A stretch of DNA of 33,277 nucleotides from Prevotella sp. (GTDB lineage: Bacteria; Bacteroidota; Bacteroidia; Bacteroidales; Bacteroidaceae). How positions within the stretch are numbered: position 1 is the first letter of the stretch; each line of letters starts with the position of its first letter. Both the position numbers and the translations under genes were made by a program. The stretch is from positions 1 through 33,277 of the forward strand of contig JAFSRY010000055.1 of NCBI GenBank assembly GCA_017445845.1, written 5' to 3'. Under the pieces are notes generated by a model, which saw only the letters and a program-made list of their open reading frames with translations, did no database searches and was not told the DNA's origin. This document shows positions 3,045-24,425 of this stretch, piece by piece.

Positions 3045-3832
3045 ACGTTACATATATTGGTGATTATGCTTTTAGGGGATGTACCAACATTACCTCTGTC
3101 ACCATGGGAGAGAATGTCACGAAAATTGGCACATCGGCTTTTTATGGCTGTAAGAATTGCGCCTCAATCATCATCGGAGAGAATGTTACCAGTATTGGCA
3201 GCTAGGCTTTCTATGGTTGCTCGGCAATGACCTCGCTGACATCTCTGCCCAGGAAGGTTCCCAGCACAACCAGCAATAGTTTTGATAGTGCCATTAAGGA
3301 CCAGGCCATCCTCTATGTGCCGAGCGCTGCCCTTGAAGCGTATAGCAGTAAAACACCTTGGTCGGATTTTTATGACATCGTGGCTCTCAATATTCCCAAA
3401 CATCAGCTTGCGTATTATGTTGATGACACTTTGTATAAATCATTCACGCTGGAAGAAGGCGAATATATCACGCCGGAACCAGCACCGGAAAAAGAAGGCT
3501 ACATCTTTTCAGGATGGAGCGAAATACCTGAGAGAATGCCTAAACATGATGTCACGGTAAGTGGTTCGTTTACTTTAACAAGTGAACAGTTAGCACTTGA
3601 CGGAATACAATACACGCTTTGGGTAAAAGAAAAGACAGCAGAAATTGTTGGATTCGATGTGACTGATGGGTTTACGGGTCAAGTATCCATTCCTTCTACA
3701 GTAACAAAAGATGGGACTTCTTTCGATGTGACCCGCATAGGCGACTCTGCCTTTTCTAAATGTGAGAATTTGACATCTGTTACTATACCTGAGAGTATAT
3801 CATTCATTGGTGAATCTGCCTTTGCAAACTGA
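3045..3832 (+). pseudogene. BspA-like LRR/InlB-repeat surface protein, broken
   Basis: The frame opens after a TAA near 3042 and reads LRR_5 repeats (VTYIGDYAFRGC, TNITSVTMGENVTKIGTSAFYGC, NCASIIIGENVTSIGS). It hits an in-frame TAG at about 3204 in the middle of a repeat, then continues in the same frame as AFYGCSAMTSLTSLP. After the usual capping segment (AILYVPSAALEAYSSKTPWSDFYDI) comes an InlB B-repeat/Listeria-Bacteroides repeat domain (TPEPAPEKEGYIFSGWSEIPERMPKHDVTVSG), then a new LRR block ending at FAN. At 3832 it stops abruptly where the conserved Cys should come, and a different reading frame begins. With no start, a nonsense codon and a 3' truncation it is a relic of a large cell-surface protein. 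Confidence 0.8.
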
Positions 3833-8547: not shown

Positions 8548-8809
8548 ATTCACGATTCATACTATCGTCACCCAGAAAAGCATGTTTCGGCACCTTCAAC
8601 CCTTAGTTTCGGCGGTTTCGTTTGTCCTAAATCTCAGAATGATTGTTCTCTTTTGCACCTGTTTTTTCTGGTTGCCGTCATTCTGAAGTGTTAAAATTTT
8701 GATATTATTTTGACAGTACGGACGGCATTTTTCTTTCTTATCCGGTCGGTGAGACACCGTCGGAAGCTGTGTCCACTCTCAGCCGTTTGCCGTTATTTCT
8801 GGCTGATAT

Positions 8810-8840
8810 TTTGTCAAGTACGGAAAAAATTGTAACTTTG
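8810..8840 (+). promoter_or_regulatory. Promoter of the GT2 gene (TTTG-N19-TAACTTTG)
   Basis: TTTG at 8810-8813 and TAACTTTG at 8833-8840 are separated by 19 bases, an ideal Bacteroidota sigma-ABfr promoter. It lies downstream of the ATG at 8769, which therefore cannot be the start of the GT2 gene. Confidence 0.75.
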
Positions 8841-8873
8841 CAAACTGATATTTCATTATTCACTTTTTTCGCC

Positions 8874-9683
8874 GTGATCTTGATTTCCGTTATCACCTGT
8901 ACCTATAATGCTGCCGGAAGCTTGCAGCGCACGCTCGACAGCGTGGGCTGTCAGACGTATCCCGCCATAGAACATCTCATTATCGACGGTGCTTCTACCG
9001 ATAATACTTTGGCATTGGCTGAAGCCTACCGCCAGGCCCAAAGTTCTGACAAATCCCGCCGTGTCCTCGTGACGAGCGAGCCTGACAAGGGACTCTATGA
9101 CGCCATGAACAAGGGTTTGCAGAAGGCTACGGGCGACTATGTGCTCTTTTTGAATGCCGGCGACACTTTTCCTTCTTCGGAAACCCTTGCGGACGTCTGT
9201 CGTGCGGCGGAGGCCTCGTTCAAGTCGACAGGCTCATTGCCTGCCGTGCTCTATGGCGACACCGATATTGTTGACGGCAACGGACACCGGTTGCGTTCGC
9301 GTAGGCTGCGGCCGCCCAAGCACCTTTCATGGCTGTCGTTCAGGCAGGGCATGGTGGTTTGCCACCAAGCGTTCTATGTCAGGACCGACCTGGCGCGTGA
9401 GACTCCTTACGACCTTCGCTACCGTTTTTCGGCAGACGTAGACTGGTGCATCCGGGTGATGAAACATGCAAAAAGGCAACAACTTGAGTTGAGAAATCTC
9501 AATCAGGTTGTTGCCTGTTACCTGGAAGAAGGGATGACGACCCGTCATCATCGGGCATCACTCGTTGAACGCTTCCGTGTGATGACCAGCCATTATGGTC
9601 TTCTTGTCACTGTCGGAATGCACTTATGGTTTGTCGTTCGTGCCATTCCCCTCCTGTTTCACAGGTTCAAGAAGAATGACTGA
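8874..9683 (+). CDS. Glycosyltransferase family 2 (WcaE-like)
   Basis: A GT-A fold enzyme predicted to add a sugar to a surface glycan. The start is a GTG at 8874 (VILISVITCTYNAAGSLQRT): the good promoter at 8810-8840 excludes the more upstream ATG, and GT2 proteins normally begin just before SVITxxYN. Key features are the GASTDNT loop, SEPDKGLYDAMNKGLQKATGD near 60-80 and VLFLNAGDTF near 85-95, which carries the metal-binding Asp, as in the WcaE subgroup. FSADVDWCIRV near 180-190 is the usual acceptor-side acid region. A C-terminal hydrophobic stretch (LLVTVGMHLWFVVRAIPLLF) may rest on the membrane. The 3' end overlaps the convergent gene at 9624 by 60 bases. Length 269 is normal. Confidence 0.88.
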   Translation: MILISVITCTYNAAGSLQRTLDSVGCQTYPAIEHLIIDGASTDNTLALAEAYRQAQSSDKSRRVLVTSEPDKGLYDAMNKGLQKATGDYVLFLNAGDTFPSSETLADVCRAAEASFKSTGSLPAVLYGDTDIVDGNGHRLRSRRLRPPKHLSWLSFRQGMVVCHQAFYVRTDLARETPYDLRYRFSADVDWCIRVMKHAKRQQLELRNLNQVVACYLEEGMTTRHHRASLVERFRVMTSHYGLLVTVGMHLWFVVRAIPLLFHRFKKND

Positions 9684-11486
9684 AGCCTTGGCATTGTCCA
9701 TTCCCGGCATGGTTCTTCCTACGCGTGCCCCGATGTAGGTCGGGTCGCATACGATGTAGCGGTCGCCGTCGAGGATGATGCAGTCGCCGTTGGGCTGTTC
9801 GTCGCCGAAGCATACGGCTGTTGCCAGGTGACCGGGATAGTATACGAGGACGACTTTCAATCCTAACAGTTCGCGTATGAGACGGGAGAAGAGGATGGAG
9901 CGGTCTTCGCAGTCGCAGTAGGGATAGTGTACGGTTTCTTCGGCGAAGAAGGCACGGTCGTGCCCCCATACATCCTCGTCAAATTGATATTCCAGAGAGG
10001 TCTGCACCCAGTTGAGAATTCTCTCGGCAGCCTCGAGGGTCGAGAGCCCCTCTAATTTCGTGCGCAGGGTATTGACCATGTATCTGTCGAGTGGATTTTC
10101 CAGCGGTGCATTGGCATAGAAAGCCCATCGTGACATTTGGTTGCCGCCGAGCATTGAACTCGGGTAGCTTTCATAGAAGTCAAGCAGGTTTTTGTTGACA
10201 CTGACTTGCAGCTCAATCTCGGGATAGCGTTTTGAGGTGAGGGTGCGTTCTTCGGTGAATTCCTCGGCAATCATCATGGGTTGTGTGATGCACAGCGAGA
10301 GTGGCATCTCCCCCGGGAAGGAAGCCTGACAGATGTTGAGGCTGGCGAGGTTGGCTTTATAGACGTAGTATTTGTCGCCGTCGAGGATGAAGTATCCTTG
10401 GTCGTAGATGATGTGCTCTGAAGAATAAAGCATCACCAGCAGGTCTTCGTCAGAAGCCAGCCGCATCTTATAGCCAGACTGTTGGAAGAGGAATGCCATG
10501 AGCAGCGTGGCCTCGTTGGCGTTGTCGGGACAGCAGGCTTGTGCCAGGCAGTCGAGCATCTGCAGATAGGCCCAGTCGCTCAGCTGATAGCGTACCCGCA
10601 GTTCTAGACAGTCGCGAATGGTGTTGTTGAAGTCGAGGCTGGCCATTTTTGTATAGGCCTCAGAGATGGCTTTTTCCGTGACATTACGCAGTTTGATGTC
10701 TTCCTTGTGGTTGAAGCGCACCTTCAGCGGTGTACCATAGAAGTTGAAGTCGATGCGCATGACCTCTTCTTCGGGCTGTTCCCTGATGGGTGACGAGGGT
10801 TTGGGCTGTGGCTTGGTGAAGTCGGCCAGCGAGGAGACGATTTCTTCCACTGCCACCATGTGCAATGCTGTGGGCGGACTGCTTTGGCTTTCTGTCGCAA
10901 CAACGGGTTTCACCTCTTTCTCTTGCGGACGAGGCTGTGGCGGTTTTGCTCCGTAACGTTTCCAAGCCTCTTTCAGGAAGTCGGCATAGGTGCGGATGGC
11001 ATTGAGCCGGAACTCTTCGTATTCGCGTTGTGCCTTCTGCTGGAAGGAACGGTATTCTTCTTCGAAGCTGTCGTGGCTGACGGCCACTTCGCGTGTCACC
11101 GTTGCCGGATCGCTATAGTGACGTGAGGTCAGTTCGCCGTTACCCTTCAACCGTTTCTTGGTGTAGGCCAGATACTGAGCGGTCAGTTGGATGGCACTGT
11201 TCTGTCGGTCTTTCATCATTTCAGAAAGACGCCCCTTGCCGGGAACCTTCAACTCATATTTCTTACCGGCTGCCTCGTCAAGTATTTCTACTTTACTCTT
11301 GAAGCCGATGTTGAGCGTACTTGTGGGTTTCAGTACCTCGCGCAGACGCAGTTCGTGCTTGGGCTGTCCGGAAGCTTCCACCTCCACCTTTCCCGTGATG
11401 CTCATCACCACATATTGCTGAGCTTGCAGCGAAAGGGCTACTGCCATCGCCGCCATCAGTATAAACAGTCTTTTCTTCATACGCAT
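9624..11486 (-). CDS. Exported protein with FecR-like N-terminus and transglutaminase-like C-terminus
   Basis: The chosen start (MRMKKRLFILMAAMAVALSLQAQ) gives a signal peptide and leaves 25 bases to the preceding gene; an upstream ATG at 11543 would overlap that gene. Residues ~22-100 (VMSITGKVEVEASG...ELRLREVLKPTSTLNIGFKSKVEILD) resemble the small beta domain of FecR-like proteins. A charged coiled linker follows (EEEYRSFQQKAQREYEEFRL, then a Pro/Gln-rich stretch). The C-terminal part has a transglutaminase-like triad: Cys in CDCED (~524-528), His in YYPGHLATAV (~553), Asp in VCDPTYIG (~581). Such domains act as proteases, amidases or inactive binders. It is the last gene of the seven-gene envelope operon, and its 3' end overlaps the convergent GT2 gene by 60 bases. 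The exact function is unknown. Confidence 0.75.
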   Translation of the reverse strand: MRMKKRLFILMAAMAVALSLQAQQYVVMSITGKVEVEASGQPKHELRLREVLKPTSTLNIGFKSKVEILDEAAGKKYELKVPGKGRLSEMMKDRQNSAIQLTAQYLAYTKKRLKGNGELTSRHYSDPATVTREVAVSHDSFEEEYRSFQQKAQREYEEFRLNAIRTYADFLKEAWKRYGAKPPQPRPQEKEVKPVVATESQSSPPTALHMVAVEEIVSSLADFTKPQPKPSSPIREQPEEEVMRIDFNFYGTPLKVRFNHKEDIKLRNVTEKAISEAYTKMASLDFNNTIRDCLELRVRYQLSDWAYLQMLDCLAQACCPDNANEATLLMAFLFQQSGYKMRLASDEDLLVMLYSSEHIIYDQGYFILDGDKYYVYKANLASLNICQASFPGEMPLSLCITQPMMIAEEFTEERTLTSKRYPEIELQVSVNKNLLDFYESYPSSMLGGNQMSRWAFYANAPLENPLDRYMVNTLRTKLEGLSTLEAAERILNWVQTSLEYQFDEDVWGHDRAFFAEETVHYPYCDCEDRSILFSRLIRELLGLKVVLVYYPGHLATAVCFGDEQPNGDCIILDGDRYIVCDPTYIGARVGRTMPGMDNAKASVILLEPVKQEGNGTNDKP

Positions 11487-11511
11487 GATATCTTTACTCA
11501 ATTCTCGATTC

Positions 11512-12699
11512 TCAAACCTTATTTCTGTAGTTCCCCACTGCATGGGTAATCATAAGTTCATAAAATTCTCGGGCACCGCCGAGGAATGGAATGGCAGCCA
11601 TTGCCCATCCCCAGTTCAGACTGTAGCCTGTCAGATAGAAGACCAGGAATCCTATCCATACCAGCATGATGGTCCATAGTGACATCAGGAGTCCGACGAC
11701 GAAGGTTGTCGTGAAGAAGAATTTCATCCATGGCGACTTTCTTGCTTTGGCCCACTTCAGGTAGGCCTTCCGCCCTAAGTGAGTGATGAGGACGATAAAG
11801 AATGACAGGATGGCCGTCATCCAGCCGCTGATGTGCTTCACTTCGCTTTGTTCGAGCAGGGTCTGTATGGAGTAGGCGAGCAGTTCTATGCCAGCCATCT
11901 CGCCTACGGGAGTGTAGTGGATGTCTGCCAACTCGTGGGTGGCTCCGTAGAGGACTACATGGTCTTCAATCCAGTCACGATGATACTCGATGCTGTCGGG
12001 GGAAATCATTCGGAAGGCCGTGGGGCGGTAGTTTACGTTGAGTTTTTTGGCATCGCGGTGAGGAATGGCTGTGCCGGCATAGTGTTCGGCCACCTGTTCG
12101 ACCAGCGACTTCCGCTCGGTGCCCTGACAACGCAGCGACAGCGTGAGGTTGCGCTTCAGTCCGCCTACCAGTCGTCTTTCGAAATTGGTGAAACCCTCGT
12201 TAGGTTGCACTTCCTCACTGAAGAACGAATGGACTTCGTTGCCATAGCCCACCGTGTCGTCGACATAATCTTCGACACGATAGGAGAAGACGATGCTGGT
12301 GTCGCGTGCCAGCTGCGTGAGCCATTGGTCGGCAAGCGTGTCGGGCTTGTTGCCCTCGAAGACCACGTCAACGCCTACCACTTTCGGGTTCATTGCCATG
12401 ATGCGTTCCAGCCCGTCGGCGATGGCTGCCCGGTCGGGCAGGTCGGTCATGTCGACGATGGTGACGACGCGGCTGGTATCCGGACTTCCGTTTTCCTTCA
12501 GTGCATAATAGTAGACATCGGTCAGCGAGAAATCCTTCATCGTCTGTGCCACTGGTCCCAGATAGGTCAACTTGAGTGCCAGCATGGCGAGGATGCCCAT
12601 GCTGGCAAAGGCGAAGACCACCGTCATCAGGTTTTCAAAAACAACCTTGGCGCGGTTTTCCTTTTTAGGCTCAACAACGTTGTCGTTATCAGTATTCAT
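11512..12699 (-). CDS. CHASE2-domain membrane sensor
   Basis: CHASE2 is an extracytoplasmic sensory domain found in membrane receptors, usually with kinase or cyclase outputs. Here a short cytoplasmic N-terminus is followed by one membrane helix (~25-47, LMTVVFAFASMGILAMLALKL). A periplasmic CHASE2 domain (~60-280) follows, with RVVTIVDMTDLPDRAAIADGLERI and NPKVVGVDVVFEGNKPDTLADQWL near the start and VVLYGATHELADIHYTPVGEMAGIELLAYSIQTLL near the end. Two or three C-terminal helices (~295-385, WMTAILSFFIVLI, FVVGLLMSLWTIMLVWIGFLVFYLTGY) close it. No kinase, cyclase or HTH output domain is present, so its signal must pass to a partner, most likely another product of this operon. It lies 62 bases after the LRR-caspase gene and 25 bases before the transglutaminase-like gene. 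Length (395) is typical of kinase-less CHASE2 proteins. Confidence 0.85.
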   Translation of the reverse strand: MNTDNDNVVEPKKENRAKVVFENLMTVVFAFASMGILAMLALKLTYLGPVAQTMKDFSLTDVYYYALKENGSPDTSRVVTIVDMTDLPDRAAIADGLERIMAMNPKVVGVDVVFEGNKPDTLADQWLTQLARDTSIVFSYRVEDYVDDTVGYGNEVHSFFSEEVQPNEGFTNFERRLVGGLKRNLTLSLRCQGTERKSLVEQVAEHYAGTAIPHRDAKKLNVNYRPTAFRMISPDSIEYHRDWIEDHVVLYGATHELADIHYTPVGEMAGIELLAYSIQTLLEQSEVKHISGWMTAILSFFIVLITHLGRKAYLKWAKARKSPWMKFFFTTTFVVGLLMSLWTIMLVWIGFLVFYLTGYSLNWGWAMAAIPFLGGAREFYELMITHAVGNYRNKV

Positions 12700-12761
12700 A
12701 ATTTAAGTTTCGCTTCTGCTCAACTTCTTTAATATCCGAAAGTTGAGTATTCATACATGAA

Positions 12762-14273
12762 TTATAGTCTCATCCTACGCCATACATCTGCCACTTTGGC
12801 TGAGGTGTTGGTCGAAGGAGTCTGGCTTTTGCGGAGTTTCAGCTGTTTGGCTGTCTGTGAGACGTTTTTGGTAAGGTCGTCAGAGAGTTTTCCGAAGGAC
12901 ACGTTGCCTGCCGTTTCGTGAAGTTCTTTCAGTAGGAAATAGGTGAAGAGTCCGTGGCCTTCTTGTGCAAGACCCTGAGCAGTTTCGTTACCTTGTGCCG
13001 CCGAGAAGACGACGATAGAACCATTGTCAAGAGTTGCTTCCTCAGCTTCGATTTCTACACCGCGCAGACCTTCAGATACACTTTCGTGGTCACGGTTGAC
13101 GCCGCTGAAGCAAGCATCGAGGAACACGGTGGTCTGACCGAATGCGAGTTCGCCAAGACGGGCGTAGAAGTCATCAAGGGCAATGCCGCGCTTAGGATTG
13201 GTTCCGCGCACATCGGTAGGAAGGATGTATGCCTTGTTCTTGTTCTTGATGTCGGGCACACCGTGTCCGGCGTAGTAGACGATGAGTTTCTTTCCTTCGC
13301 GGTCAGGGATTTGTGCAATCCAGTCTTCCAGCTCTTCTTCCTGTATCATCTGCTTCGTGGCATCCTCGACGAGGTGGATGTTTTCTGCGGGCAGTCCGAG
13401 GGTCATCTTGCAATACTCGCTGAAGATGCGCGCATCATGGATGGCATAAGGCACGCTGCCTACGAAGCGATAGTTCTGGTTACCGATGATGAGAGCATAG
13501 GAGTTGATGTCGGTGAAGGAGCCGATGGGAATCTGCTCGTCGACGATGGATGTGATTTGGTCGTAGTTCTCGTCGTGGGTTATCTGTGCATGGTTGATGT
13601 AGTTTTCGACGGACTGCTTCGAGAAACCATATTCGGCACAGTTAGCAAGGTTCACATACTGAGGAAGATTGGAGATTTCGCCGTTGTAGAGGGTGTGTCC
13701 GACTTTGCCGTCTTCGTTCGTTTCTGTTGCAAAGACATAGTGTCCGAGTTCGGCCGTAGAACCGACTTCGACGAAGTTGAGCTTGGTGCACGACATGAAC
13801 GCCTGGTCGCCGACGCGGCAGTGCTCGGGTATCTTTACAGAGAGCATCTGGCTGCACTTTGCAAAGGCAATCGTTCCGATTTCACGCAGCTGAACGGGAA
13901 GGGATATCGTACGAAGCTTGCCACAGTTCAGGAAAGCACCCCATCCGATTTCCCTCATCTCGGTGCCTTCGAAGACTACTTCCTGCAGCGATTTGCAGTT
14001 GGCGAAGGCGCAAGAACCGATTTTCGTGATGCCCTGCCCGATCTGTATTCTTTTGATGTTTAGGTTTTTCTTTATCCAGGGGGCAGGGTTGTTCTTGACA
14101 TCATAGTCGGGAATGGTTGTGTTCATTCCTTTTTTGCTGACATTGGTGAAGTAGAGAGTGATGCCATCGTGGGTCCACTTTGTTTCATCACCACACATTC
14201 CTTCCGTCTTCTGTGCAAGGGCACTCGGAATGGCAAGTACGGTCAGTAGAATGGTAATAATAATTTTTTTCAT
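12762..14273 (-). CDS. Exported LRR-caspase (peptidase C14) fusion protein
   Basis: Residues 1-20 (MKKIIITILLTVLAIPSALA) are a signal peptide. Residues ~70-180 form four BspA-type LRR_5 units (ITKIGSCAFANCKSLQEVVF, MREIGWGAFLNCGKLRTISL, LREIGTIAFAKCSQMLSVKI, CRVGDQAFMSCTKLNFVEV). Residues ~255-455 are a caspase/metacaspase domain: YALIIGNQNY opens it, the catalytic His is H337 in IVYYAGHGVP and the catalytic Cys is C388 in TTVFLDACFSG. FSAAQGNETAQG and GLFTYFLLKEL near 423-450 are family-typical. The dyad is intact, so it should be an active cysteine peptidase in the periplasm or at the surface, with the repeats as a likely binding or regulatory module. A ~40-residue basic C-terminal tail (KQLKLRKSQTPSTNTSAK) follows. 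It is the centre of the seven-gene operon; substrate unknown. Confidence 0.88.
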   Translation of the reverse strand: MKKIIITILLTVLAIPSALAQKTEGMCGDETKWTHDGITLYFTNVSKKGMNTTIPDYDVKNNPAPWIKKNLNIKRIQIGQGITKIGSCAFANCKSLQEVVFEGTEMREIGWGAFLNCGKLRTISLPVQLREIGTIAFAKCSQMLSVKIPEHCRVGDQAFMSCTKLNFVEVGSTAELGHYVFATETNEDGKVGHTLYNGEISNLPQYVNLANCAEYGFSKQSVENYINHAQITHDENYDQITSIVDEQIPIGSFTDINSYALIIGNQNYRFVGSVPYAIHDARIFSEYCKMTLGLPAENIHLVEDATKQMIQEEELEDWIAQIPDREGKKLIVYYAGHGVPDIKNKNKAYILPTDVRGTNPKRGIALDDFYARLGELAFGQTTVFLDACFSGVNRDHESVSEGLRGVEIEAEEATLDNGSIVVFSAAQGNETAQGLAQEGHGLFTYFLLKELHETAGNVSFGKLSDDLTKNVSQTAKQLKLRKSQTPSTNTSAKVADVWRRMRL

Positions 14274-14297
14274 CGTTGCATATAGTTTTAGAGATGA

Positions 14298-15206
14298 TTA
14301 CATTTTTATTTGCAGGTAGATGCGGTCGACGGCAGCGTCGAATTCGTAGGAGTCCTTGCCGTAGGTCTTTGTTTCGATGGACTTATACTTCAGGTTGGCT
14401 GTGCGGTGTTCGTAGCCTACACCGAGGAACTTCCAGCTGAAGACACCACCGTAGGTCTTCACCATGCCATGGCCCCAGTCGATTTTAGTGCCTTTGCCCA
14501 TTGTTTCGTGTTCGCTGCCGCTGGTGGTCACGTCGGCATTCTTGTTGTTCTTGAAATACAGACCGGATGCCTCGTAGCCCATGTGATAGTAAAAGCGGAA
14601 TTGGAAGAAGTGAAGTCCTTTGGCCTTGATATAGGTGAAGGGCGACAATGTCAGCGAAGGACCGATTGTCATGGCGATGTCGGCCTGATACTTCTCAATG
14701 TTCCAGGGGGTGTAGCTGAAGCCTGTCGAGAGTTCCTTACTGCTGTCATAGAGATTGCGTCCGTTGCCCTCTTGTTCATAGTGGGCGACAGAAAGGTCCA
14801 GACCGGTATAGTCGATGCAGAACTGTGCTACGTTGGCAATGGTCTTCTTGTGCAGACGATAGCTGCGGCCTACCTGCAGCGAACCATACCATTGAGCCTT
14901 ATACACAGGGGCAAATCCATTGTTATAGTCAACGCCGGTTTCAATGGGCTTGGTGGGTGTGAGGGTGGCTTCCTTTCCATAGACAAAATTGACATAGGAG
15001 CGGCGGCGCCAAACGTTGGAGAAGTGTTTCTCCATGGCATTGCGGTTGGTTGCTTCCTGTTGCTCGTTCACGATGTCGTTGATAGAAGTGATTTCGGCCT
15101 GGTCATCCTGAATCTCTGTGTTTTGTTGGTCTTCGTCTTCATACTGTGCGAAAACATTTCCTACAGAGAGCAGGAAAACCCCAAGGAATAATAATATTTT
15201 TTTCAT
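14298..15206 (-). CDS. Probable outer-membrane beta-barrel protein
   Basis: A signal peptide (MKKILLFLGVFLLSVGNVFAQ) is followed by an acidic N-terminal segment (EDEDQQNTEIQDDQAEITSI). Many alternating aromatic/polar strands come next (YVNFVYGKEATL, YKAQWYGSLQVGRSYRL, GLHFFQFRFYYHMGYEASGLYF, GGVFSWKFLGVGYEHRTANLKY). The final strand ends VDRIYLQIKM, matching the amphipathic C-terminal strand of outer-membrane barrels, although the last residue is Met rather than an aromatic. I recognise no named family; the size (302) suits a small 8-12 strand barrel. It stands 24 bases upstream of the LRR-caspase gene, so the two are probably translated from one message and may work together at the outer membrane. 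It could be an adhesin-like surface barrel or an anchor for the caspase protein. Confidence 0.65.
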   Translation of the reverse strand: MKKILLFLGVFLLSVGNVFAQYEDEDQQNTEIQDDQAEITSINDIVNEQQEATNRNAMEKHFSNVWRRRSYVNFVYGKEATLTPTKPIETGVDYNNGFAPVYKAQWYGSLQVGRSYRLHKKTIANVAQFCIDYTGLDLSVAHYEQEGNGRNLYDSSKELSTGFSYTPWNIEKYQADIAMTIGPSLTLSPFTYIKAKGLHFFQFRFYYHMGYEASGLYFKNNKNADVTTSGSEHETMGKGTKIDWGHGMVKTYGGVFSWKFLGVGYEHRTANLKYKSIETKTYGKDSYEFDAAVDRIYLQIKM

Positions 15207-15301
15207 CTTTCTTTATTTTTTTTATTTGATATTTCACATTATATTATATATATAGCATACATTCGTATGTCATGAATTTCTGGAAATGATGCCGCCATCC
15301 T

Positions 15302-16234
15302 TTAGTGTTTATTGACGGCGGGCTTATGGATTTTAATCCATTTTTTGTCGACCACCATGTCGTGGTCTTGTCGTTGGCACTTCAGGAGCCATTTCTGGAA
15401 GTCGTGGGTGCTGAGCGAGTTGGGATGTCGGGCATCGCCAGTGATGTCGTTGCATTTAGTGAACGGGTTTGGCGACCAGATGACGACCAGTTGGTTGTCT
15501 TCTTGTGGGCGTGTGGTAGACAGTTTGTAGAAGGGGGCCATCGGGTCGTGTTCCTTGTCGAAAAGAACATAGTCACGTCCGCCTCTCACGGCAAAGCGCC
15601 CGAAGGCATCTTTGGGGTAGGGCAGGAGACAGGATGTCTCGTCGTCGCCGACGATGAGGTAAACGGCAAGGTATCCGTCGGCAGGTGCACGGAACTTCAT
15701 ATAGACGCGCTCGCCGCTGATGAAGGAAGACGTGACGATCTTCTCTCCGCTGTCATCTTTCAAGACGCTCCACTTCAGGTCGGCCTTTGCCTGAATGATT
15801 TCGCGGGCTTTTCCGACTACTTCGGCGATGAAGACGAGTTTTCCATCCACATAGTCCACGTTGAGCACGGGTGGCTTGATGTCTGCCAGCCATTCGCCGC
15901 GGGCCATGGCGACGGTGTTCTCCCAATAGTATGAGCTGGAGGCTTCTCCGTTGGTTTCGGCATTGGAGTCGATGACATCGGAGGTAATCATTTCACCGAA
16001 GGCATTCTTGATGGCTTGTGCCTTGGCCAGTTCTATACATTTTCTTTTTGCGTCCTTCAGTGTGATGTTGTCGTTGTCACTGACGGTATAGACATATTTA
16101 CCCGAGACCGTGGTTGTCTTCTGTGCGGAGACTGCCAAGGGCACGAATAAAGCAAAAAGCAGATAGAAAGGGTAATGGATAATGGATAATTGAACATTAT
16201 GATTACCCCTGCCGGCACATTTCACTTTTCTCAT
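15302..16234 (-). CDS. Exported DUF4384-like protein with FlgO/LPP20-like N-terminal domain
   Basis: The signal peptide is unusual: MRKVKCAGRGNHNVQLSIIHYP is encoded by an intergenic repeat (CCTGCCGGC plus ATTATCCATTATCC modules, 16171-16218), followed by a normal hydrophobic core FYLLFALFVPLAVSAQ. No ATG lies further in, so the repeat seems to supply the start and N-region. Residues ~45-150 (DNDNITLKDAKRKCIELAKAQAIKNAFGEMI) resemble the helix-plus-sheet fold of LPP20/FlgO/FlgP-type proteins. Residues ~160-260 (ERVYMKFRAPADGYLAVYLIVGDDETSCLLPYPKDA) match the DUF4384 pattern, a beta domain that I recall next to secreted kinases and caspases. That association fits the caspase gene downstream in this operon. 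Role unknown; probably periplasmic or outer-membrane associated. Confidence 0.72.
   Translation of the reverse strand: MRKVKCAGRGNHNVQLSIIHYPFYLLFALFVPLAVSAQKTTTVSGKYVYTVSDNDNITLKDAKRKCIELAKAQAIKNAFGEMITSDVIDSNAETNGEASSSYYWENTVAMARGEWLADIKPPVLNVDYVDGKLVFIAEVVGKAREIIQAKADLKWSVLKDDSGEKIVTSSFISGERVYMKFRAPADGYLAVYLIVGDDETSCLLPYPKDAFGRFAVRGGRDYVLFDKEHDPMAPFYKLSTTRPQEDNQLVVIWSPNPFTKCNDITGDARHPNSLSTHDFQKWLLKCQRQDHDMVVDKKWIKIHKPAVNKH
16171..16218. repeat. Repeat phrase inside the signal-peptide coding region
   Basis: On the minus strand: TGCCGGCAGGGGTAATCAT, AATGTTCA, then ATTATCCATTATCCATTACC. It encodes CAGRGNHNVQLSIIHYP of the DUF4384-like protein. The same modules occur non-coding at 6861-6893. 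Confidence 0.7.
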
Positions 16235-16318
16235 TTCTTTTTTCCTATTACCTTTATTTAAGTTTGACTTCGTCGACCTTCGGTTCGCATTTGCTCTTAA
16301 ATAGGTTATTGCTTTTGG

Positions 16319-16403
16319 TTGACGAGTTAACGAGTTGACAAGTTAACGAGTTATTACTTTTATCATTTAACTTGTTTACTTGTCTACTTGTTTACTTGTC
16401 TAC
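16319..16403. repeat. Intergenic repeat phrases AACTCGTTAACTTGTC and GTAGACAAGTAAACAAG
   Basis: In the sense of the minus-strand genes, two copies of GTAGACAAGTAAACAAG follow the stop codon of the 16414 gene. TTAAATGATAAAAGTAATA comes next, then AACTCGTTAACTTGTC and AACTCGTTAACTCG before the next gene. The same series, in the same orientation relative to transcription, recurs between the trmH-like and ribD genes (24297-24425). Confidence 0.75.
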
Positions 16404-16413
16404 GCGATTACCA

Positions 16414-16950
16414 TTATTTGACAACGTAGAGCAACAGGATCTCGGTGCTGCCGTCTTGCTCGCGACAGAGGCTGATGGTGGGCTTCAGCGAATTGACGTT
16501 CTGTGCCGTTGAAGAGCGATAGGACGCTTCGAAGTCGGTCTGTGACGTTGCTACTTCGCCAGACTTGTTGGTGATGTGAGTCTCGGCGCCGCCCTCCACG
16601 CTGCCACCCTTCAGCAAAGCCATTTGCACAGAGGCATTATGCGAGGCTTTGCGATAAGCGGCATTAGCCGAGGCTGCTTTGCCTCGGCTTTCGAATGTCG
16701 TTGCCTCTAAGCCCTGCCGCTCAAGAGCAATAAAATGTGCCTTGAGGGCTTTGTCGAGGCTAAGGCTTTTTCCCCATACGGTCCATCCTTCCTCCGTCAT
16801 CTGCTTCAGGGTTTTTTGGTATTCCTGTTTTGTCGATTTACTCAGTTTGGGTTCGCCGGCATAGGCCGAGAGTGTTGTCGACAGAAAGCAGACGATGAGC
16901 AAGAGAAGTGGATAATGGATAATTGATAAACGATAATTGTGGCTATCCAT
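16414..16950 (-). CDS. Exported protein, paralogue of the upstream gene product
   Basis: The start at 16950 (MDSHNYRLSIIHYPLLLLIVCFLSTTLSAYA) lies 4 bases after the preceding stop and gives a signal peptide whose N-region NYRLSIIHYP is encoded by the ATTATCCATTATCC repeat. The mature part begins LSKSTKQEYQKTLKQMTEEGWTVWGKSLSLDKAL, clearly parallel to AAVKEAKQLKKEGWKVNPGALPIEKQL in the 16955-17629 product, so the two are diverged copies. Residues ~85-178 are a helix-then-sheet region with NKSGEVATSQTDFEASYRSSTAQNV and a final strand EILLLYVVK. The fold is probably LPP20/FlgO-like. Function is unknown; tandem placement suggests the two proteins form a pair in the periplasm or outer membrane. 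Confidence 0.7.
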   Translation of the reverse strand: MDSHNYRLSIIHYPLLLLIVCFLSTTLSAYAGEPKLSKSTKQEYQKTLKQMTEEGWTVWGKSLSLDKALKAHFIALERQGLEATTFESRGKAASANAAYRKASHNASVQMALLKGGSVEGGAETHITNKSGEVATSQTDFEASYRSSTAQNVNSLKPTISLCREQDGSTEILLLYVVK

Positions 16951-16954
16951 TTCC

Positions 16955-17629
16955 TTACCAACCCAGGATTTCGTCGAGTTTCTCCATTCCCTTGTCGCCG
17001 TCAATCTCCAGTTGCTTGCGAATGGCTTCTTTTGCGACAGCTTTTACTTCCTTCTCGCTGCAGGCCAGGCGTATCAGCACTTCCTTGTTCTTGTTCTCAA
17101 GGGTGCGGGTCATCTCGACGATGACGAGCGTGCGGCCGAGGCTCTGTTCGATGAACGACTTGGAGTTCATGGTGCTCTTTACTACAGAGGTAGCCTCTTC
17201 GGGTGATAGCTGGCTGTTGGTGACGGTGTTCTCGACGAGTGCAGTGACTTCAGAATGGATGTTGCTGGCGAGGTTGATTTTTGCCAGTTCCTGAGCCTGC
17301 ATCTTGGCGGCATCATAGTTTTCGCCTACACTGCGGGCTTCACCCATGATATACTTCGGGAAGAGGTTCTCATCGAAGTCGTTCTGCATCATGTAGGACT
17401 TGTCGAGCTGCTTCTCGATGGGCAGAGCACCAGGATTGACTTTCCAGCCTTCCTTCTTCAGCTGCTTGGCTTCCTTGACGGCAGCCTTCGTAGCCTTCTT
17501 GGTCAACTCAGCCTTCGAGGCTTTTTGGATTTCCTTACGCGCCTTCAACTGTTCCTTTGAGAGTTGGGCTTGCATGGGCATGGTCATGCCTAAGAGCATG
17601 ATGGCGATGATGAGTTTGATTGCTTTCAT
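16955..17629 (-). CDS. Exported LPP20/FlgO-like protein, first gene of the envelope operon
   Basis: A signal peptide (MKAIKLIIAIMLLGMTMPMQAQ) precedes a Lys/Ala-rich amphipathic helix (LKARKEIQKASKAELTKKATKAAVKEAKQL, ~24-58). The motif KEGWKVNPGALPIEKQLDKSY follows, then GEARSVGENYDAAKMQAQELAKINLASNIHSEVTALVEN (~95-135), a helix typical of LPP20/FlgP-like proteins. Strands FIEQSLGRTLVIVEMTRTLENKNKEVLIRLAC (~160-195) and a helical tail end at DEILGW. The helix could lie along the envelope or form a coiled coil. The gene is the likely promoter-proximal member: TAACTTTG at 17751-17758 (-) lies 122 bases upstream and the next gene starts 4 bases after its stop. Function unknown. Confidence 0.75.
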   Translation of the reverse strand: MKAIKLIIAIMLLGMTMPMQAQLSKEQLKARKEIQKASKAELTKKATKAAVKEAKQLKKEGWKVNPGALPIEKQLDKSYMMQNDFDENLFPKYIMGEARSVGENYDAAKMQAQELAKINLASNIHSEVTALVENTVTNSQLSPEEATSVVKSTMNSKSFIEQSLGRTLVIVEMTRTLENKNKEVLIRLACSEKEVKAVAKEAIRKQLEIDGDKGMEKLDEILGW

Positions 17630-17758: not shown

Positions 17759-17938
17759 CAAACTTTTTTCTTTTTTTAAAAAATATTTTCGGTTTTTTTA
17801 CGTTGATGACTATAAAAAAGGGCAATTCGCCTGTTGAGTGTCATATAATACCGTACAAATCAGCTTTTGTGCAATCGTTTTTGCAGGAAAAACAGGAAAA
17901 GGTTGTGCCGTTGGTTTTATGGTAAGTGTGTTTTTTAT

Positions 17939-17946
17939 TATTTTTG
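17939..17946 (+). promoter_or_regulatory. Possible promoter -7 element TATTTTTG for the GH13 gene
   Basis: TATTTTTG fits TAnnTTTG and precedes the lipoprotein ATG at 17991 by 44 bases. The nearest TTG (17911-17913) is 25 bases away, longer than ideal. Confidence 0.4.
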
Positions 17947-17990
17947 TGGCATTGAAAGAAACAATCATTAAAAAAACAACAGAAAGAAAC

Positions 17991-19961
17991 ATGAGAAAAC
18001 TGTTTTTGCTGCCCGTATTGTCGGCCATGTTGCTGGCTGCGTGCAACTCTGGCAATGGTGCCTTCAGCGATGAGGGCAACGGTGCCGTAGAAGTGAACCG
18101 TATCGACCCGACCGATTGGTATGTCGGAATGAAAGACCCCTCGCTGCAGCTGCTGGTCTATGGACAGGGTATCGGCGACGCTGAAGTGTCGGTGAAGGGT
18201 GCGAAGATTGACTCGCTGGTGCGCTTGGAGTCACCCAACTACCTGCTGGTCTATCTGAACCTGAAGGGCGCTAAGGCCGGCGACCTGCCCATTGCCTTCC
18301 AGCGTGGCGACGACAAGACCATTGTGAAGTATCAGCTGAAGGAACGCCAGATGAAGGGTGAGGAGCGCATGGGTTTCACCAATGCCGACGTGCTCTATAT
18401 GCTGATGCCCGACCGTTTTGCCCAGTCGGAAGACCATCCTGCACAGATTGAGGGTATGAACGCTTACGTTGAAGACCGCTCGATGCCGTCGTTGCGTCAT
18501 GGTGGCGACCTGGAAGGCATCCGTCAGCATCTGGACTACTTTAACGACCTCGGTGTGACAGCCCTTTGGTTTACGCCCGTCCTTGAGAACAATTCGCCCG
18601 ACAGCTACGGAGGCAAGGTGAGCACCTATCACGGCTATGCCACGACCGACTACTACCGTGTAGACCCACGCTTCGGTACGAACGAAGACTATCGACGACT
18701 CATCGACGATGCCCATCAGCACGGGCTGAAGGTGGTGATGGACATGATTTTCAACCATTGCGGTTTCGAGCATCCCTGGGTGGCCGACCTGCCTGCCAAG
18801 GACTGGCTGAACAATCCCGAATGGCTTGCACCGGAGAACCAGACCGAAGAGCACATGACCGAACAACGCAACATGGACGGTGTCACGCGTGTCAGCGACC
18901 TCTACCGCCAGACTTCCTATAAGCTCACGCCGGTACTTGACCCCTACGCTTCAGAAGTAGACCTCGGTGAGACCGTCGACGGATGGTTCGTTCCGAACAT
19001 GCCCGACCTGAACCAGCGCAATCCTCATGTCATTCGCTATCTCATCCAGAACTCGGAATGGTGGATTGAAACCGTCGGCATCGACGGCATCCGCATGGAC
19101 ACCTATCCCTATGCCGACCGCTCGGGCATGGCTCAGTGGATGAAGGTGCTCGACAACGAATATCCCAACTTCAATACCGTCGGAGAGACATGGGTCACCG
19201 AACCTGCCTACACCGCAGCATGGCAGAAAGACTCGCGGCTGGAGAAAGACAACTCCTACCTGAAGACAGTCATGGACTTCTCCTTCTTCGATAAACTCAA
19301 TCAGGCACGCTACGAAGAGACCGACGGATGGTGGAACGGTTTCAACCGCATCTACAACTCGCTCGTCTATGACTATCTCTACGAAGATCCCACCCATGTG
19401 ATGGCATTCATCGAGAACCACGACACCGACCGCTTCCTCGGCGACGGCTATCCCGGACAGGACAAGCCCGCCCTGAAACAGGCCCTCGCCCTCTTGCTCA
19501 CTATCCAGCGCATACCGCAGCTCTACTATGGCACAGAGGTACTGATGAACGGCACGAAGGCCCAGACCGACGGCAATGTCCGTAAAGACTTCCCCGGCGG
19601 CTTCAAGGGCGACACCCATAACTGCTTCACCGAGGAGGGACGTACTGCCGAAGAGCAGGAGATGTTCAGCTGGCTGTCGAAACTGCTCCATTGGCGCCAG
19701 GGCAACGAAACCATTATCCGTGGCTACCAGACACAGTTCACACCCTACAAAGGCATCTATGTCGTTGCCCGCCGTTGGCATCGCAACTGCGTCATGACCG
19801 TTCTCAACGGAACAAACCATGAGGTGGAGTTCGACTGGAAACGCTATGCAGAACTGGTCGACGGACAGAACGAGGCTACCGACATCCTCACCGACCGCAC
19901 CTTCACCATCGGAGAGCCCATGACGCTGCAGCCCCGCGAGGCACTCATCCTCGAATTCTGA
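17991..19961 (+). CDS. GH13 alpha-amylase/neopullulanase-type lipoprotein (SusA-like)
   Basis: The enzyme should hydrolyse maltodextrins, pullulan-type or cyclic alpha-glucans in the periplasm. The start at 17991 gives a lipoprotein signal peptide with lipobox LLAAC (MRKLFLLPVLSAMLLAAC); the longer open frame to 17838 is non-coding leader. Residues ~35-115 form the cyclomaltodextrinase-type N-terminal beta domain (DWYVGMKDPSLQLLVYGQGI...). The TIM barrel starts at DVLYMLMPDRFA. Catalytic residues are visible: nucleophile D370 in GIRMDTYP, acid/base E399 in TVGETW, and the third carboxylate D478 in ENHDTDRF. A C-terminal beta domain ends at LQPREALILEF. At 656 residues it is normal for the group. 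It is followed by a strong terminator, so it is probably a single-gene unit rather than part of a sus operon. Confidence 0.92.
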   Translation: MRKLFLLPVLSAMLLAACNSGNGAFSDEGNGAVEVNRIDPTDWYVGMKDPSLQLLVYGQGIGDAEVSVKGAKIDSLVRLESPNYLLVYLNLKGAKAGDLPIAFQRGDDKTIVKYQLKERQMKGEERMGFTNADVLYMLMPDRFAQSEDHPAQIEGMNAYVEDRSMPSLRHGGDLEGIRQHLDYFNDLGVTALWFTPVLENNSPDSYGGKVSTYHGYATTDYYRVDPRFGTNEDYRRLIDDAHQHGLKVVMDMIFNHCGFEHPWVADLPAKDWLNNPEWLAPENQTEEHMTEQRNMDGVTRVSDLYRQTSYKLTPVLDPYASEVDLGETVDGWFVPNMPDLNQRNPHVIRYLIQNSEWWIETVGIDGIRMDTYPYADRSGMAQWMKVLDNEYPNFNTVGETWVTEPAYTAAWQKDSRLEKDNSYLKTVMDFSFFDKLNQARYEETDGWWNGFNRIYNSLVYDYLYEDPTHVMAFIENHDTDRFLGDGYPGQDKPALKQALALLLTIQRIPQLYYGTEVLMNGTKAQTDGNVRKDFPGGFKGDTHNCFTEEGRTAEEQEMFSWLSKLLHWRQGNETIIRGYQTQFTPYKGIYVVARRWHRNCVMTVLNGTNHEVEFDWKRYAELVDGQNEATDILTDRTFTIGEPMTLQPREALILEF

Positions 19962-23325: not shown

Positions 23326-23346
23326 ATTTCTTTTTTTTTGTCTGCT

Positions 23347-23374
23347 AAAAGTAATAACTTGTTTACTTGTCTAC
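23347..23374. repeat. Repeat phrase forming the ribD stop codon
   Basis: On the minus strand GTAGACAAGTAAACAAG followed by TTATTACTTTT. The TAA inside GACAAGTAAAC is the ribD stop, so the protein ends in VDK. Confidence 0.7.
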
Positions 23375-24283
23375 TATCAAATTATTTTTCATTTTTTCAA
23401 TTGTGTTTGTCCCATAGACGTTTCGTTGGAGCAGCGTCACATCGGTCGGGCGAAGGGGGGCTGGTGTGCCCTGCCGTGCAAACAGTTGGGTGTTAGTCTC
23501 GATACGCAGTTCGTCGTAGAAACCGGCTTCGAGGAAACTCTCTAACGTCTTGCGGCCTCCTTCAACGATGAGCGACTGGAGGTTTTCCTTTCGACAGGTT
23601 TCTATAATTTGGTCCATGGTGTTGTTGCGACTGAGCACAAACTTCCGTGGCGACGGCCCGCACCAGTGGCGCACGTTCAGCAGGGGATGCTCACGTTCCT
23701 CGGTGGTGTGTCCGACGACGATGGCGTCTTCTTCGGCACGAAGCCGGTGGACGAGCATCTTCGTGAAAGGGGTAGAGATGGCAAGCGGCTGGCCATCGCT
23801 GTCGATGAAGCCGTCGGCGGTCTGTGCCCACTTCAGGATGATGTAGGGTCGGTGGTACTGGTGGAAGGTGAAGAACCGCCGGTTCAGCCATCGGCACTCG
23901 TCCTCGAGGACACCCGTCTCTACGTCGATGCCTGCGTCGCGAAGACGCTGGATGCCTCGGCCCTGCACCTCGGCAAAGGGGTCTATGCAACCCACGACAA
24001 CCTTTCGTACCTGTTTCCTGACGATGAGGTCGGCACAGGGTGGCGTCTTGCCATAATGGGAGCAAGGCTCAAGGCTGACGTAGAGGGTAGCCTCGTGCAA
24101 CAATGCTTCGTCGGCAGCCTTTACCGATGCAAAGGCGTTCACCTCGGCATGGGCTTCGCCATAGCGCCGATGGTAGCCTTCGCCGATGATGCGCCCGTCG
24201 GCACTGACGATGACGGCCCCGACCATCGGGTTTGGTCGGGCTCCCATCCGTCCGCATTGGGCGAGCTCCAGGCAGCGTTGCAT
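23363..24283 (-). CDS. ribD: Bifunctional riboflavin biosynthesis deaminase/reductase RibD
   Basis: RibD deaminates the first pyrimidine intermediate of riboflavin synthesis and then reduces its ribose. The deaminase domain has the zinc motif HAEVNAF (H45, E47) and LEPCSHYGKTPPCADL (C74, C83). RPNPMVGAVIV is near 16-26. The reductase domain begins around ILKWAQTADGFID with PFTKMLVHRLRAEEDAIVVGHTT and ends IVEGGRKTLESFLEAGFYDELRIE. The start is uncertain: ATG at 24283 (MQRCLELAQCG) omits the family's usual E-x-Y-M lead, which is present upstream (KKELYMQRC), so a TTG at 24307 or ATG at 24349 may be used. That upstream segment is encoded by a repeat phrase, and the last three codons (VDK) and stop also come from a repeat. 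Length of about 306-328 is slightly short. Confidence 0.92.
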   Translation of the reverse strand: MQRCLELAQCGRMGARPNPMVGAVIVSADGRIIGEGYHRRYGEAHAEVNAFASVKAADEALLHEATLYVSLEPCSHYGKTPPCADLIVRKQVRKVVVGCIDPFAEVQGRGIQRLRDAGIDVETGVLEDECRWLNRRFFTFHQYHRPYIILKWAQTADGFIDSDGQPLAISTPFTKMLVHRLRAEEDAIVVGHTTEEREHPLLNVRHWCGPSPRKFVLSRNNTMDQIIETCRKENLQSLIVEGGRKTLESFLEAGFYDELRIETNTQLFARQGTPAPLRPTDVTLLQRNVYGTNTIEKMKNNLIVDK

Positions 24284-24296
24284 GTATAGTTCTTTT

Positions 24297-24425
24297 TTAG
24301 TTGACAAGTTAACGAGTTGACGAGTTATTACTTTTAGTTGACGAGTCATGAGGAATTAGTCATGAGTAATTAGTAATGAGTAATTAGGATTACCTTTATC
24401 ATTTAACTTGTTTACTTGTCTACTA
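24297..24425. repeat. Intergenic cluster of repeat phrases between trmH-like gene and ribD
   Basis: In gene sense the order is GTAGACAAGTAAACAAG (supplying the upstream gene's VDK and stop), then TTAAATGATAAAGGTAATCC. TAATTACTCATTACTAATTACTCATGAC follows as short tandem units, and finally ACTCGTCAACTAAAAG, TAATAACTCGTCAACTCG and TTAACTTGTCAACT up to the ribD start. The modules match those at 16319-16403. Confidence 0.75.

Follow-up and report, generated by a model that had tools for sequence, protein, structure and literature searches.

A seven-gene envelope locus in Prevotella

In this study, we performed a computational analysis on a 33,277-nucleotide stretch of DNA from Prevotella sp. (contig JAFSRY010000055.1; "the window" below means this whole stretch), and in particular on seven open reading frames (ORFs) that lie in series on its minus strand, from 17629 to 9624. 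Their products include a caspase with leucine-rich repeats (LRRs), a CHASE2 membrane protein and a transglutaminase-like (TG) protein that begins with a domain here called the connector. The association of these genes is real to near certainty. They are not chance neighbours, because other genomes contain the same genes in the same order; chance adjacency was ruled out by the identical gene order of two other loci, L019 and L022, and by the adjacency counts reported below. The original prediction had named seven consecutive genes between these coordinates, and recomputation from the ORFs agreed with it, giving intergenic gaps of 4, 179, 95, 24, 62 and 25 bases in gene order. The genes are as follows (aa, amino acids).

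16955..17629, minus strand: LPP20-like predicted exported protein a, 224 aa; an ORF without a Pfam match of its own
16414..16950, minus strand: LPP20-like predicted exported protein b, 178 aa; same ORF cluster as protein a
15302..16234, minus strand: predicted exported DUF4384-like protein, 310 aa; PF14326 3.2e-4, under the cut-off
14298..15206, minus strand: probable outer-membrane beta-barrel, caspase partner, 302 aa; barrel nature inferred
12762..14273, minus strand: predicted exported LRR_5-caspase, 503 aa, dyad His337/Cys388; from Pfam and residues
11512..12699, minus strand: CHASE2 inner-membrane protein without output domain, 395 aa; PF05226 3e-19
9624..11486, minus strand: predicted exported connector-TG fusion, 620 aa, Cys526/His553/Asp581; Transglut_core 0.0042, under the cut-off

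Protein domains were assigned by a Pfam scan with curated cut-offs, and export was judged from hydropathy. The caspase protein combined LRR_5 (2e-23) with Peptidase_C14 (PF00656, 6.3e-16), both over the cut-off, and His337 and Cys388 were found in it, as were Cys526, His553 and Asp581 in the TG-like protein. With the caspase dyad and the TG-like triad present, the two intact cysteine-based catalytic folds that had been proposed could be recognized, the first of them in an LRR protein whose hydropathy suggests export. The CHASE2 match was over its cut-off, and hydropathy placed three hydrophobic segments near residues 24-42, 290-308 and 334-352 of that protein. Profile scans of its 395 residues revealed no domain besides CHASE2 and thus no kinase or cyclase output, in agreement with its earlier description as kinase-less. 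Six of the seven products start with a signal-peptide-like segment and the seventh, CHASE2, has membrane segments, so that all seven carry, by hydropathy, the signal peptides or membrane helices previously assigned to them. A search of PDB sequences gave 11 matches for the caspase protein, with relatives for its LRR part only, and a poor best match (E 2.1) for the 620-aa protein.

The remaining assignments depend on protein families. In the family of the DUF4384-like protein, 13 of 17 members matched PF14326 at E<=1 (best 1.4e-7), and the assignment appears to hold at that level. Pfam gave nothing useful for the two LPP-like proteins and the barrel, and neither LPP-like protein matched PF02169 (LPP20). 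The hidden Markov model (HMM) of the LPP-like family matched a Bacteroides finegoldii protein annotated "LPP20 family lipoprotein" (E 7e-18), which itself scored 25.8 bits vs a Pfam LPP20 cut-off of 25.9, and in that species a TG gene follows two LPP20 family lipoprotein genes with one hypothetical gene between. The LPP20 identity of the window proteins would hold only through such relatives.

The connector domain occupies about residues 22-136 of the 620-aa protein, at its N-terminus, and is followed by the transglutaminase-like domain. It had been labelled FecR-like, a label that failed two tests. At E<=1, 30 members gave matches to 38 families, and the 25 families listed did not include PF04773 (FecR), which at most one of the 30 could match outside that list, and an hhalign comparison of the connector with 20 genuine Bacteroidota FecR domains returned a probability of 0.7%; FecR identity was thereby ruled out. 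The fused connector of the window and stand-alone connectors belong to the same family (99.7%, E 8e-27, hhalign). Overall, the profile searches once suggested for these products confirmed LRR_5, Peptidase_C14 and CHASE2, left DUF4384 and Transglut_core below cut-off and did away with FecR.

Recurrence of the gene set and exchange of hydrolases

An alignment of six CHASE2 proteins led to 60 loci in genome contigs, or 61 with the window; the scan used one peptide pattern and detects only CHASE2 with that motif. Some of these loci are closely related, and the 61 are not 61 independent events. Companions were counted on the same strand within 9 kb with HMMs built from ORF clusters. The connector domain was present in 59 of the 61 loci (not found in L033 and L056) and at least one cysteine hydrolase in 58 (none in L033, L039 and L060, the sequence of L039 ending soon after the connector). 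TG was found in 42 loci, caspase in 17 (15 with TG and 2 without) and CHAT in 14, and TG and CHAT never occurred together (0/61). Conserved gene order across Bacteroidales had been proposed as a check; it was indeed found, in that L019 and L022 repeat the seven-gene order of the window exactly and 11 of the 61 loci hold all window gene families in some order (the window, L019, L022, L023, L024, L028, L034, L051, L052, L057 and L058). As a separate observation, in L028, L051, L052, L057 and L058 CHASE2 lies between two TG genes, with the connector once per locus.

The proteins of these loci retained the same features. The 61 CHASE2 ORFs were 245-424 aa long, the shortest probably truncated, and had no output domain; with the window included, 17 showed 3 hydropathy segments, 35 showed 4 and 9 showed 5. 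Catalytic residues were invariant, namely Cys-His-Asp of TG in 45/45 aligned proteins, His/Cys of the caspase in 17/17 of these loci (window included) and His/Cys of CHAT in 14/14 aligned. The caspases occurred in three architectures, LRR-caspase, TPR-like caspase (TPR under the cut-off) and Sel1-caspase. All caspases (10/10, 5/5 and 2/2), CHAT proteins (14/14) and TG proteins (45/45) passed a test for an N-terminal hydrophobic core, a lenient one in which any Met up to residue 110 could serve as the start.

On the CHASE2 tree, the hydrolase labels required 13 changes, with a minimum of 4 and a shuffled mean of 29.5; by this measure the putative effectors are clustered on the tree yet exchanged repeatedly. 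One well-supported branch separated 17 from 44 rows: the 17-row side held all 14 CHAT loci, 2 caspase-only loci and 1 without hydrolase, and the 44-row side all 42 TG loci and 2 without hydrolase. We also observed that in the TPR-CHAT loci L054, L061, L063, L066, L067, L071, L074, L075 and L077 the flanking ORF clusters c10, c15 and often c16 are common across species, so that this version seems to occupy a single, fixed place in the chromosome.

Such swapping of enzymes on a constant core would suit an extracytoplasmic conflict or defence device, in which the LRR picks a protein of a rival cell, phage or host and the caspase, TG or CHAT enzyme acts upon it. The patchy distribution of CHASE2 (38 of 301 family genomes, see below) and a generic "caspase" match of the window caspase in PADLOC (1.7e-16) point the same way. 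Nevertheless, PADLOC gave nothing for the other six products except a weak LmuA match (0.003), and Pfam, PADLOC and other profile scans found no NTPase, nucleotide sensor or nucleotide-binding regulator, or nuclease in the seven genes. We consider a conflict device improbable.

Large repeat proteins stand beside some TG-type loci, with LRR_5/Fn3_assoc, MBG_2 (8 stretches), CHB_HEX_C_1 (14 stretches), BACON or PEGA domains, and they are possible substrates of the enzymes. Their position also fits an apparatus for maturation or attachment of surface proteins, in which TG and caspase would process or crosslink repeat proteins and CHASE2 would be a structural anchor and no switch; Clan CD enzymes at the cell surface are known in the phylum, such as the gingipains and PorU. 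Most CHAT-type loci, on the other hand, are without these repeat-protein clusters, though L059 holds an LRR_5 protein. Furthermore, an ECF-sigma-like (extracytoplasmic function) gene lies inside the operon in L144, L146 and L149, which suggests regulation. Elsewhere CHASE2 is a sensory input domain, as described in the available parts of two papers (PMC5192318, PMC13001267). On balance this apparatus seems rather unlikely to be the explanation.

The 60 loci all come from metagenome bins or from uncultured isolates; Prevotella, Prevotellaceae or other Bacteroidales make up most of these sources. Many are named for rumen or other forestomach samples, a setting in which secreted proteases for protein feeding, with companions by chance, might be considered. 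The one locus with an adjoining C10 peptidase agrees with this: in L035 (13048-15783), a Peptidase C10 protein with an I69 inhibitor domain directly follows CHASE2-TG, and Peptidase C10 may be one more type of partner among the cysteine proteases. Nutritional proteases, however, would not be expected to have recurrent companions, a fused connector or a sensor protein, and we regard the feeding explanation as very improbable.

Wider distribution, control modules and genomic setting

To describe frequency, we used a sample of 301 family genomes selected independently of gene neighbours. The CHASE2 profile matched 38 of them. The TG-protein profile matched 116, 95 strongly (best E under 1e-22) and 21 more weakly; the weaker genomes with coordinates among the matches listed align over the connector part only. 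CHAT was found in 71 genomes and Peptidase_C14 in at least 97, the Peptidase_C14 counts being lower bounds because the caspase of the window itself (Pfam 59 bits) escaped the fast search. The barrel profile matched 47 genomes, with 16 strong places, the window's own included.

Adjacency in this sample exceeded expectation by far. Among the matches listed, CHAT or caspase lay within 10 kb in 22 of 37 CHASE2 genomes (own left out), and 23 of 69 listed hydrolases (CHAT 19/44, caspase 4/25) were adjacent to CHASE2 vs 0.49 expected under uniform placement. An alignment-based caspase profile, run on the 80 genomes holding the 100 strongest TG places, matched 41 of them; 29 of 61 strong caspase places lay within 10 kb of TG vs 0.69 expected, and 29 of the 100 TG places had a caspase-family gene within 10 kb. 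Eight of these 29 had a listed CHASE2 and 21 had no detected CHASE2, the latter an upper bound because diverged forms of CHASE2 (L153, L154) escape its profile search, with at least one of the 21 (G224, L154) holding a diverged CHASE2-like protein. Conversely, 10 of 15 listed CHASE2 in the 80 genomes were near TG. The barrel had 15 strong homologues in other family genomes. The caspase profile had been run on the genomes of 10 of these, and all 10 lay within 3.5 kb of a caspase gene.

CHASE2 had been proposed as the centre around which the operon is built. This view was abandoned: TG is wider (95 strong vs 38 of 301), which ruled out CHASE2 as obligate centre, and the LPP/DUF4384/TG/caspase core was also seen with no CHASE2 detected. 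The wider core appears to be LPP-like/DUF4384/TG, often with caspase and barrel, and CHASE2 one predicted control module of several.

Other candidate modules appeared among 20 TG loci, 14 of which were selected for a nearby Pfam caspase, so that they are not a sample. Caspase was present in 12 by our own HMM, and LPP-like and DUF4384 proteins were both present in 11; L144 has a caspase by Pfam (3.2e-15), and L143 has one in the genome-wide Pfam listing. In L144, L146 and L149, an ECF-sigma-like gene is followed, inside the operon, by one for a short protein with one hydrophobic segment (by eye), and no CHASE2 was found in these three TG operons. The sigma matches (NCBIfam best E 1.7e-9, 3.6e-6 and 5.7e-10, respectively) were under curated cut-offs. 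The sigma match was weak in L142; in L148 it was clear and lay on the opposite strand. Pfam recognized a diverged CHASE2 in L153 (1.8e-8), with a near-identical protein in L154. In some loci that lack CHASE2, control may instead fall to the ECF-sigma-like gene and its one-helix partner.

Beyond the family, a sample of 296 genomes from the phylum gave PF05226 matches in 111, most of the matches listed being in long open frames. Sixteen places were taken, selected for short or long frames. Seven had short frames; one of these, L087, is cut by a contig end and six are complete (L081-L086), and an exported caspase was found in the same gene run in four of the six distant output-less loci (L081, L082, L083 and L086). 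Among the nine long-frame places, caspase genes were near in L093 and L094. In L082, from a distant member of Bacteroidota, the gene directly after CHASE2 encodes a 648-aa protein that joins connector (own HMM, 9.2e-12), caspase (Peptidase_C14, 2.8e-16) and outer-membrane barrel (OMP_b-brl_2, 2.4e-6). L083 also encodes, between the connector gene and the caspase, a Peptidase_C1 protein that matches DUF4384 weakly.

Plasmid or mobile cargo was ruled out by searches of plasmid records, the flanks not being scanned for mobile elements. Seventeen records matched the LRR-caspase, none across >80% of the query; TG matched one, from B. finegoldii, and the CHAT-type CHASE2 none.

In the window, the locus has the following setting.

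17838-19961, opposite strand to the seven genes: alpha-amylase-family gene (Pfam), one flank
16235..16413, minus strand: 179-bp gap between genes 2 and 3, a dispersed genomic repeat
8769-9683, opposite strand: glycosyltransferase gene (Pfam), other flank, with a 60-base overlap with the last gene

The host assembly, of which the window is contig 11, has 2.46 Mb and is 75.5% complete, and the repeat has 56 matches in it on both strands, the gap itself counted; further copies in the window lie at 23343-23375, 24295-24336 and 24389-24424. The GC content of the seven-gene unit (0.509 vs 0.507 for the window) is similar. The peptide LSIIHYP occurs in the signal peptides of both LPP20-like protein b and the DUF4384-like protein, the products of genes 2 and 3, and the DNA encoding it (near 16900-16950 and 16150-16234, minus strand) is alike and looks like a short repeat entering coding sequence. 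BspA-type LRR-like reading frames lie upstream (3083-3832), one match having an in-frame stop. Operon status follows from gaps, shared strand and conservation, since promoter and terminator scans gave no support: promoter-like sites were not above the shuffled level in the window (9 vs 6.9, sd 2.9), six window matches to a Bacteroidetes-type promoter pattern included none in or directly upstream of the operon, and terminator-like sites exceeded the shuffled level (16 vs 9.8, sd 2.8), the five on the operon's strand all lying within genes.

Proposed mechanism and comparison with known systems

We suggest that the locus encodes hydrolases of the periplasm and outer membrane that are governed by a sensor, with the connector as mediator, a reading whose chances we judge to be evenly balanced and whose mechanism is inferred. 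CHASE2 has no cytoplasmic domain, and therefore its effect must lie outside the cytoplasm. Found alongside CHASE2, the connector forms a fusion with TG in the window and with caspase and barrel in L082, and in other loci stands alone. It is established practice to infer a functional link between the parts of a gene fusion, and fusion to different hydrolases makes the connector the presumed link between sensor and enzyme. CHASE2 would hold the connector or release it and in this way pass a signal on beyond the cytoplasm; the state of the connector would switch the TG-like enzyme and the caspase, while the barrel would keep the caspase at the outer membrane. The enzymes would then cut an envelope or surface protein, or TG might crosslink it instead, and the LPP20-like and DUF4384 proteins could be scaffold or input parts on the outer-membrane side. 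Of the periplasm and outer-membrane machine for sensing and proteolysis originally envisaged, the conserved envelope set and the intact catalytic residues stood, and sensing and proteolysis remain its proposed function.

Several observations weigh against the sensor-governed reading. First, TG occurs without caspase or CHAT in 27 of the 61 loci, and the caspase and barrel are missing from L020 and L021, two close neighbours of the window on the tree that keep the other genes. Second, TG is commoner than CHASE2 in the family sample (95 strong genomes against 38), a listed CHASE2 lies within 10 kb at only 13 of 100 TG places, so that the enzymes may act independently of CHASE2; at 71 of the 100 TG places, no caspase-family gene lies within that distance. 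In L084 and L085, no hydrolase was detected with our own HMMs, their neighbours not being Pfam-scanned. Third, the window matches to Transglut_core (17.8 bits vs a cut-off of 23) and PF14326 (21.1 bits vs 27) are below cut-off, the CHASE2, TG and barrel profiles have no PDB sequence match, hydropathy is the sole evidence of export, and enzyme activities, substrates and interactions are predicted only.

A broader and more tentative claim, to which we give a little less than even credence, is that Bacteroidota possess a widespread form of signalling that never enters the cytoplasm, in which a sensor without inner domain, or a sigma/anti-sigma-like pair, would govern exchangeable hydrolases (transglutaminase-like, caspase, CHAT, perhaps papain-like C1 and C10) through the connector, the caspase being an envelope switch and not a death effector. 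Bacterial caspase and CHAT proteins are mostly viewed as cytoplasmic death or immunity effectors, and an exported, sensor-tied set would, if true, give them a second role at the cell surface. The scheme offers a testable explanation of how CHASE2 might function in proteins that lack a kinase or cyclase, and it points to an envelope enzyme family annotated only as "hypothetical protein" in the gut species B. finegoldii. In addition, hydrolases swapped among relatives while the rest is kept point to unstudied cell-surface control.

That no system with this set had been described agrees with our literature search, which found no published description of it in a partial coverage, mostly without subscription papers. 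Among known systems, Lap relies on LapG, a transglutaminase-like cysteine protease; to our knowledge, CHASE2, the connector domain, caspase, CHAT, DUF4384 and LPP20-like parts do not belong to Lap. According to the available part of the source, in Pseudomonas fluorescens LapD interacts with and inhibits the periplasmic protease LapG, which releases LapA, so that an inner-membrane receptor controls a periplasmic cysteine protease for a surface adhesin, as we propose here in outline; LapD binds cyclic di-GMP in the cytoplasm, whereas no such domain was found in the window protein (PMC3032545). Profile scans of the latter detected CHASE2 only and no cyclic di-GMP receptor domains. The resemblance would be one of logic, the TG enzymes being compared by description only, and relationship by descent is not claimed.

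CHASE2 has been coupled to caspases elsewhere. In the available text on Trichodesmium, a CHASE2 domain shares one chain with a caspase that is predicted to be cytoplasmic, whereas the window caspase is a separate, apparently exported protein; the same text states that some metacaspases may act extracellularly (PMC3501461). A cyanobacterial review, as far as available, names CHASE2 as the receptor domain of membrane-bound orthocaspases (PMC7475262). The BiofilmReg operon of Burkholderia and P. aeruginosa likewise sets a CHASE2 protein beside an exported FecR-like protein, but there CHASE2 is within a histidine kinase, mostly with a response regulator, such hydrolases are not mentioned in the available part of the paper, and the FecR domain assigned by the paper contrasts with the FecR label that fails for the window protein (PMC5192318). 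The EACC2/TRADD-N systems, from a paper on apoptosis-like immunity, include CHASE2 among variable C-terminal domains; in the part available they form a predicted immunity network of other domain make-up, whose constant component was not found in the seven genes (PMC8195603). In Sinorhizobium meliloti, a protein signal reaches the CHASE2 adenylate cyclases by way of the outer-membrane barrel NsrA, a CHASE2 input through a barrel and a protein signal that is comparable to our locus, although their output, in the available text, is cytoplasmic cyclic AMP (PMC7529298, PMC13001267).

Finally, cytoplasmic caspase conflict systems have an NTPase or nucleotide-binding regulator of the kind not found in the seven genes, and the window caspase has an export-signal-like start; membership in these systems or in Lap is not claimed. 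Judged by its domains, the seven-gene set appears to be an unusual arrangement of known domains, akin to CHASE2-coupled caspase-type modules but predicted to be extracytoplasmic.

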